Source: Verrucomicrobiota bacterium (GTDB lineage Bacteria; Verrucomicrobiota; Verrucomicrobiia; Chthoniobacterales; UBA10450). Taken from it: a stretch of DNA of 40,758 nt. Made by a program: the position numbers and the translations under genes. Positions 28,116 to 29,495 of the stretch are shown here, piece after piece; within the stretch, counting starts at the first letter, position 1, and each line of letters begins with the position of its first letter. The notes below the pieces were generated by a model. That model was given only the letters and a program-made list of their open reading frames with translations. It was not told where the DNA came from and made no database searches. The stretch spans positions 1-40,758 of the forward strand of contig QHQE01000114.1 of assembly GCA_003219265.1 (NCBI GenBank), in the 5' to 3' direction.

Positions 28116-28568
28116 ATGGCCAAGAAGACAAAACGAAAACTCGCGCACCCGACCCTGCCGATGCAACGCCAGTTGAATTTGCGGCATGAGGGGACGCATT
28201 TCGATCTGCACGCGATTTTTGAGCGATTGAACGAACGCTATTTCCGCGGACGTCTGCGCGGTTACAAAGTGATGTGGGGTCGCCGGCGAAGACATCGCCC
28301 GAAGGAATATTTTATTTTCGGCACCATTCAGGAAGAAGAGCGCGTGATTCGAATCAATCCGTTGCTTGATCAACCGTTCGTGCCGCTCTGGTTTCTGCGC
28401 TACGTGCTTTATCACGAGATGCTCCATTCCGTCGTGCCGGACGAGACCGCGTCGGGCGGCCGGCGGCGCGTGCACACGGAAGAGTTCAATCGCCGCGAGC
28501 GCGAGTTCCCGAGTTACCGGCGCGCTCGCCGTTGGGAAGACGAAAATCTCGCGCGCTTCTTACGCTGA
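28116..28568 (+). CDS. SprT-like zinc metalloprotease domain protein
   Basis: FDLHAIFERLNERYFRGRL...WFLRYVLYHEMLHSVVP (HExxH). Confidence 0.82.
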   Translation: MAKKTKRKLAHPTLPMQRQLNLRHEGTHFDLHAIFERLNERYFRGRLRGYKVMWGRRRRHRPKEYFIFGTIQEEERVIRINPLLDQPFVPLWFLRYVLYHEMLHSVVPDETASGGRRRVHTEEFNRREREFPSYRRARRWEDENLARFLR

Positions 28569-28582
28569 AGGAGCGCTTAACG

Positions 28583-28732
28583 TTAACGCCTTTCCGTCAT
28601 CGTCGTACCCGAGGCCGGTTCAGACCGCGAGGGGGTCGTCGCTACGTTCTTTTTGATCAGGTACCAAAGGGTTGTCGCGAGCAGGAGGGAGATCAACTTC
28701 GCGCGCCAGTTTTTCAGGATCAGTCTCTTCAT
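28583..28732 (-). CDS. 49-aa YbbR/CdaR N-terminus-like single-TM peptide overlapping cdaA
   Basis: MKRLILKNWRAKLISLLLATTLWYLIKKNVATTPSRSEPASGTTMTERR; resembles the CdaR/YbbR membrane anchor (NW..KL.SLLLA..LWY) but has no YbbR domains. Confidence 0.6.
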   Translation of the reverse strand: MKRLILKNWRAKLISLLLATTLWYLIKKNVATTPSRSEPASGTTMTERR

Positions 28733-29495
28733 AATTGCTGTGCAGCAGAATTTCCGCGATGCGTTGCCGGAATGTTTCTGGAGTAAAATTGCGCTCGATC
28801 CGGCGCGGGTGACAAATAGAAATGCCGCCGGTCTCTTCGGAAACAACCACCGCCACAGCATCCGATTCCTCGGTAATGCCGAGACCGGCGCGATGACGCA
28901 ATCCGAGACTGCGGTCTAGTGTTTCCCGCTGGCTGACCGGGAAAATGCATGCCGCGGCCGCGATCCGGCCATTACGCACGATCACCCCACCATCGTGAAG
29001 AGCGGCCTTCGGATGAAAAATTGCCAGGATAAGTTCGACGGAAAAATCGCTATCGAGCGTCACGCCGGTTTCTTCATAAACGCGAATCGAAGTGTCTCGC
29101 TCGATCGCGATAAGGGCGCCGAATTGTTTGTTGGCCAGTTGCGTCACCGCCTCGGCCAGGTCGTGGACGGTCTCCCGTTTTTCGCTCGTTAGAGAAAAAA
29201 TCGGATGCCCGCCCAGCTCGGCCAGACCACGCCGCAACTCCGGTTGAAAAATTACGACCAACGCGACCGCGAGGAAAACCGAGAAACTCCGGACGATCCA
29301 GCCGATCACGACCAGATTGAGCAACTGCGAAATCAACGTCAGCGTCAAAAAAACAATCGCTAGTCCGGTTAGCACCTTCGCGCCGCGCGTCCCGCGAAAG
29401 TAGATGTAGCCGTAGTAGATCCCCACGCTCAGCAAAATGATCTCGAAGGCGCTGCGCCATCCTCCGAGCCAAAAATGGATGAGTTGCTCAATCAT
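28620..29495 (-). CDS. cdaA: diadenylate cyclase (c-di-AMP synthase)
   Basis: VVIFQPELRRGLAELG, FGALIAIERDT, LHDGGVIVRNGRIAAAACIFPVS, LGLRHRAGLGITEESDAVAVVVSEETG. Confidence 0.96.
   Translation of the reverse strand: MIEQLIHFWLGGWRSAFEIILLSVGIYYGYIYFRGTRGAKVLTGLAIVFLTLTLISQLLNLVVIGWIVRSFSVFLAVALVVIFQPELRRGLAELGGHPIFSLTSEKRETVHDLAEAVTQLANKQFGALIAIERDTSIRVYEETGVTLDSDFSVELILAIFHPKAALHDGGVIVRNGRIAAAACIFPVSQRETLDRSLGLRHRAGLGITEESDAVAVVVSEETGGISICHPRRIERNFTPETFRQRIAEILLHSNYEETDPEKLAREVDLPPARDNPLVPDQKERSDDPLAV

Follow-up and report, generated by a model that had tools for sequence, protein, structure and literature searches.

Genes for c-di-AMP synthesis have the canonical order cdaA-cdaR-glmM, and the outer repeats of CdaR (YbbR) are usually taken as its sensing part. 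In the window, by which we mean the whole analysed stretch of 40,758 nucleotides, the 3' end of cdaA is overlapped by an open reading frame of only 49 codons. Is this frame a gene, and if so, is it what became of cdaR? The sequence-only reading had taken it for a membrane anchor of the YbbR type, encoded over the end of cdaA. The coordinates, the translation (MKRLILKNWRAKLISLLLATTLWYLIKKNVATTPSRSEPASGTTMTERR, followed by the stop codon) and the overlap of 113 nt were confirmed. The features of the locus are:

28583..28732, minus strand: mini-cdaR, putative anchor-only CdaR with a single helix and the motif K-x6-A-x3-W, 49 aa, stop included
28620..29495, minus strand: cdaA, membrane diadenylate cyclase, 291 aa, stop included; TIGR00159 at 3e-63, above cut-off, PF19293 and PF02457
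28620..28732, minus strand: two-frame overlap of mini-cdaR and cdaA, 113 nt, substitutions following the mini frame
28583..28619, minus strand: 3' part of mini-cdaR free of overlap, encoding a variable C-terminal tail; residues 42-49 with low pLDDT
29497..30336, minus strand: folP-like gene for a pterin-binding enzyme, next to cdaA on its upstream side, PF00809 at 2.8e-84; context only
28116..28568, plus strand: SprT-like ORF, convergent, ending 14 nt from the mini-cdaR stop, PF10263 at 8e-07, above cut-off; context only

The cdaA product is composed of CdaA_N and DAC domains (PF19293, PF02457). Relative to cdaA, mini-cdaR lies in the +1 frame, such that its third codon position coincides with the first codon position of cdaA, and it extends 37 nt beyond the cdaA stop. 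The mini frame stays open upstream of 28732, where an ATG at 28861 would give 92 aa; the conserved start is the ATG at 28732, and all 52 of the aligned family sequences have ATG at this position. No Pfam or NCBIfam model matched the ORF. The YbbR repeat (PF07949) was likewise absent from it in the Pfam search, in agreement with the sequence-only reading. The glmM gene of this genome is located on another contig (C30) and not beside mini-cdaR. By kinship the genome is a soil MAG, with MAGs of Candidatus Udaeobacter, Chthoniobacterales and Spartobacteria as its closest named records.

The relationship to CdaR was analysed with a profile (A1) built from the small ORFs only, with which 195 genomes from this phylum were searched. 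Outside the class, the profile gave 26 matches, all of them in the gene after cdaA: a comparison of coordinates by hand placed 25 immediately after the DAC domain in the same orientation, and the remaining one (G224) was confirmed downstream of DAC at locus L134. In 24 cases the genome has YbbR repeats in its post-cdaA gene, and the other two (L124 and L134) are anchor-only themselves. Comparison of A1 with the N-termini of full-length CdaRs from other classes by hhalign yielded a probability of 97.6% (E 2.6e-12). In this phylum sample, each of the 33 class genomes with a CdaA-type DAC had an anchor match and none (0/33) had YbbR. The motif K-x6-A-x3-W was present in 82 of 84 small ORFs and in 31 of 39 longer CdaRs, and CdaRs with one or two repeats carry the same anchor. 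Judged by these profile comparisons, mini-CdaR is homologous to the N-terminal anchor of CdaR, as had been proposed. An ORF newly created inside the cdaA 3' end, resembling the YbbR anchor by convergence, would fit the deep overlap in the family of the window, and hydrophobic helices can look alike by chance. However, such an origin explains neither why the small-ORF profile finds only the post-cdaA gene outside the class nor the profile-profile E-value, and it is also at odds with the shared anchor of the one- and two-repeat intermediates and with the unchanged position before glmM in relatives. Homology and gene order thus rule out overprinting, and we assign it a negligible probability.

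The sequence-only reading had named conservation of the frame in close relatives as a check of its proposal. Each of the 35 same-family loci that contain the cdaA 3' end has mini-cdaR there, and the ORF also adjoins cdaA in all 19 same-order loci, giving 54 of 54 for family and order together. This conservation, together with the lack of new stop codons in either frame and the codon-position bias of substitutions described below, is far beyond chance. Among the same-order loci the start lies between -154 and +25 relative to the cdaA stop. Starts without deep overlap occur at -3 (L036, L053, L054), +5 (L038), +9 (L042) and +25 (L049, L052), and the anchor sequence is the same in these shallow or non-overlapping loci. 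The order cdaA-mini-cdaR-glmM is kept in L042, L047, L049, L050, L052-L054 and some relatives of the class. A repeat-bearing CdaR retained at another site was considered and rejected: no YbbR repeat was found in the window's own genome (84% complete), nor above cut-off in the 59 genomes of the order, 58 relatives among them. The ORF is therefore not the remnant of a CdaR kept elsewhere, an outcome that had been foreseen as a possible refutation. Two loci of family f62 (L273, L274) have cdaA and glmM without mini-CdaR between them, an apparent complete loss, and mini-cdaR is thus not indispensable everywhere. In family f14 (L097, L103-L107, L110, L113, L114) a dethiobiotin-synthetase-like ORF follows mini-cdaR in place of glmM.

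Translational coupling, which had been suggested from the 113-nt overlap, found no support at this locus. The cdaA stop comes 112 nt after the mini-cdaR start, a Shine-Dalgarno match of at least three bases is lacking for 42 of the 69 distinct starts, and the deep overlap is missing in several relatives starting at -3, +5, +9 or +25. Coupling is plausible in those relatives whose start at -3 forms an ATGA.

Selection in both frames, a second check put forward with the original proposal, was compared using codon-position counts, which are approximate and were obtained by parsimony on a FastTree tree. Within the overlap, substitutions at mini codon positions 1/2/3 numbered 38/50/181 (p = 3e-31). 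In the upstream part of cdaA the counts by its own codon positions were 261/72/2085. Because mini position 3 is cdaA position 1, the pattern in the overlap is opposite to that expected for a constrained cdaA, and the accumulation of third-position substitutions identifies the mini frame as the constrained one. Changes synonymous in the mini frame and nonsynonymous in cdaA had a relative rate of 2.28, versus 0.69 for changes nonsynonymous in the mini frame and synonymous in cdaA. Changes silent in both frames were over-represented (25 observed at 1% of opportunity), and the tail of the cdaA frame may be under weak constraint of its own; this excess was given little weight since the opportunity is small. 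In the tree of 72 distinct sequences, a stop codon was gained in neither frame. The non-overlapped 3' end of mini-cdaR is near-neutral (116/96/165) and encodes a tail rich in Pro, Ser and Thr within the family.

Further copies of mini-cdaR are located away from an intact cdaA at eight loci (L202, L211, L213, L215, L217, L218, L221, L222) of related soil MAGs, where an N-terminal stretch is tandemly repeated. The cdaA frame is broken by stop codons in several of these copies. Between groups, their dN is ~0.07-0.16 versus a dS of 0.4-1.3, corresponding to dN/dS of roughly 0.1-0.3. In some of these loci an FHA-domain ORF follows the second copy. Taken together, conservation in family and order, the substitution pattern and the second copies are three independent tests, and they establish mini-cdaR as a real gene under purifying selection. 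The loss of every YbbR repeat and the complete absence of the ORF from L273 and L274 could instead mark the ORF as the residual N-terminal end of a cdaR undergoing decay, held open by the cdaA frame. Yet purifying selection acts on the mini frame and not on cdaA, conservation extends to loci in which the ORF hardly overlaps cdaA (L036, L038, L042), second copies persist with the cdaA frame broken, and on the CdaA tree the principal anchor-only clade comprises 54 rows. The substitution pattern in particular rules out decay, which retains only a very small chance of being correct.

How could a gene of this kind have arisen? The lengths of post-cdaA genes fall into clusters of 31-94, 127-172, 221-229 and 308-356 aa, corresponding to the anchor plus about 0, 1, 2 and 3+ YbbR repeats; typical lengths of these steps across the phylum are ~50, 140, 225 and 320 aa. 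A larger sample of the class contained YbbR in 30 of 286 genomes, mostly as short proteins with one or two repeats, and this contradicts an absence of YbbR from the class as a whole. The CdaA tree, built by a quick method with weakly supported deep branches, recovered one clade of 54 rows (SH-aLRT 95) whose typed rows comprise 47 anchor-only loci, four with an anchor fused to CdaA or a CdaA-borne helix, and two with the ORF lost. Anchor-only groups were also present outside this clade (L237-L239 with L250; L124 with L134; a few inside a one-repeat clade). This scattered distribution suggests that total repeat loss probably happened several times, with the weak deep support of the tree in mind. 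Mini-cdaR would accordingly go back to a full-length CdaR from which every extracytoplasmic YbbR repeat has been lost.

The overlap itself appears to be younger. In outgroups, cdaR starts ~-16 to +40 from the cdaA stop without deep overlap, so that the deep overlap is the derived state. Probably, the cdaA tail was extended over a pre-existing mini-cdaR: loss of the cdaA stop would have let the tail read on across mini-cdaR, producing the overlap of 113 nt. The description of the ORF as laid over the cdaA end thus holds for the overlap and fails for its direction, as the mini frame is constrained and the cdaA tail is what likely spread. A mini frame serving mainly to extend or terminate CdaA, or acting as a leader with an inert peptide, would be in line with the constant position of the cdaA stop across 103 loci and with the excess of changes silent in both frames. 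We consider this quite improbable. The tail in question (CdaA residues 254-291) is the least confident part of an AlphaFold model that is poor overall (mean pLDDT 51.5, shallow alignment), it is missing in relatives, and it changes freely compared with the mini frame.

The predicted structure of mini-CdaR consists of one helix (residues 3-32) and a disordered tail. In 65 of 84 small ORFs the net charge is higher ahead of the helix than behind it, consistent with an N-in/C-out orientation. Mini-CdaR would hence be a single N-in/C-out transmembrane helix of ~30 residues with a short disordered tail. Its association with CdaA is near-obligate. In Firmicutes, the transmembrane domain of CdaR binds that of CdaA (PMC10243994, PMC8573169). 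Our main reading, to which we assign a probability of about 0.72, is that mini-cdaR is a genuine anchor-only CdaR gene that has lost its repeats and whose product most likely packs on the transmembrane helices of CdaA. The helix is proposed to contact the N-terminal transmembrane helices of CdaA and might thereby stabilise the cyclase complex or tune its oligomeric state and c-di-AMP output, acting as reported for the ordinary CdaR anchor with the outside sensor removed.

Regulation of c-di-AMP synthesis by mini-CdaR is plausible by analogy with CdaR. Loss of CdaR leads to higher c-di-AMP in S. aureus (PMC11520302) and in P. gingivalis (PMC9259658). Depending on conditions, CdaR is reported to activate or to repress, and its mode of control over CdaA is said to be unclear (PMC8573169). 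S. aureus YbbR expressed in E. coli had no clear effect (PMC6368335). The effects of CdaR on CdaA thus differ between species. This counts against the main reading, as do the loss of the ORF in L273 and L274, the weak Shine-Dalgarno signal in the family, the absence of glmM beside mini-cdaR in the window's own genome and the possible constraint on the cdaA tail.

In-frame fusions of CdaA with the anchor were found at L276 (f17, anchor 4.6e-16) and L103 (f14, anchor 1.4e-9), in both cases at the cytosolic C-terminus of CdaA. This arrangement forces an N-in/C-out topology and ties the anchor to CdaA. At L126, CdaA and a repeat-bearing CdaR share one open frame of ~600 aa. CdaA-CdaR fusion proteins also occur in some streptococci (PMC10243994); there, as here, cyclase and CdaR anchor are joined in one polypeptide, implying joint action. 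In contrast to these, L276 and L103 are fused without repeats, and the window has two separate, overlapping genes. The fusions make the anchor a permanent part of the enzyme, and with no repeats in the ORF, none above cut-off in relatives and a short, near-neutral tail, the helix could be a fixed subunit that stabilises CdaA or inserts it into the membrane, signalling having ended with the sensing repeats. We regard this as possible, if somewhat doubtful: sequence cannot tell a structural role from regulation, and the free-standing second copies suggest a diffusible partner. CdaA of L266 and L267 (family f86) has an extra C-terminal hydrophobic helix directly before glmM. It may represent a third built-in anchor, the helix being weaker and the anchor profile giving no confirmation.

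Mini-cdaR resembles cdaR in lying directly after cdaA, in an N-terminal anchor helix with K-x6-A-x3-W, in having glmM next in several relatives, and in its homology by profile comparison. It differs in its size of ~50 aa without any PF07949 repeat, versus 300 aa or more for CdaR, in the deep +1 frame overlap within the family of the window, and in that glmM does not follow it in the window. Since the repeats are a defining feature of YbbR-domain proteins, mini-CdaR is not classed among them; as far as homology can tell, it is an anchor-only descendant of CdaR, for which the name mini-CdaR is fair. Small membrane proteins with a single helix are known as a class of binding partners and modulators of larger membrane enzymes. 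Mini-CdaR is similar to these in its ~50 aa, its one transmembrane helix and its position beside or over the presumed target, and unlike them its origin can be traced to the anchor of a multi-repeat regulator.

These results suggest that what is essential in CdaR is the anchor, rather than the large outer domain. The broader proposal, on which we are evenly divided, is that the anchor helix is the sufficient CdaA-modulating core of CdaR in general, the repeats being optional and lost singly, to zero several times, leaving ~50-aa c-di-AMP microregulators throughout the class. A large helix-only clade, strongly selected and linked to CdaA, shows which part of CdaR evolution keeps and offers a ready minimal CdaR for testing, and the steps of 0, 1, 2 and 3+ repeats within one phylum provide natural CdaR truncations. 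Mini-CdaR also constitutes a small-protein family missed so far, lacking a Pfam or NCBIfam model, and short overlapping ORFs like this one are presumably easily missed by annotation. No published description of an anchor-only CdaR was found in a search of mainly openly accessible literature, so absence of a record does not prove novelty.

A different DAC protein of ~450 aa is present in some families of the class, which show neither an anchor match nor YbbR. At L136-L144 (f13, f16, f19-f22), where CdaA and mini-CdaR are lacking, the ~450-aa protein carries DAC at its C-terminus, and its N-terminal part appears PTS EIIA-like by eye.
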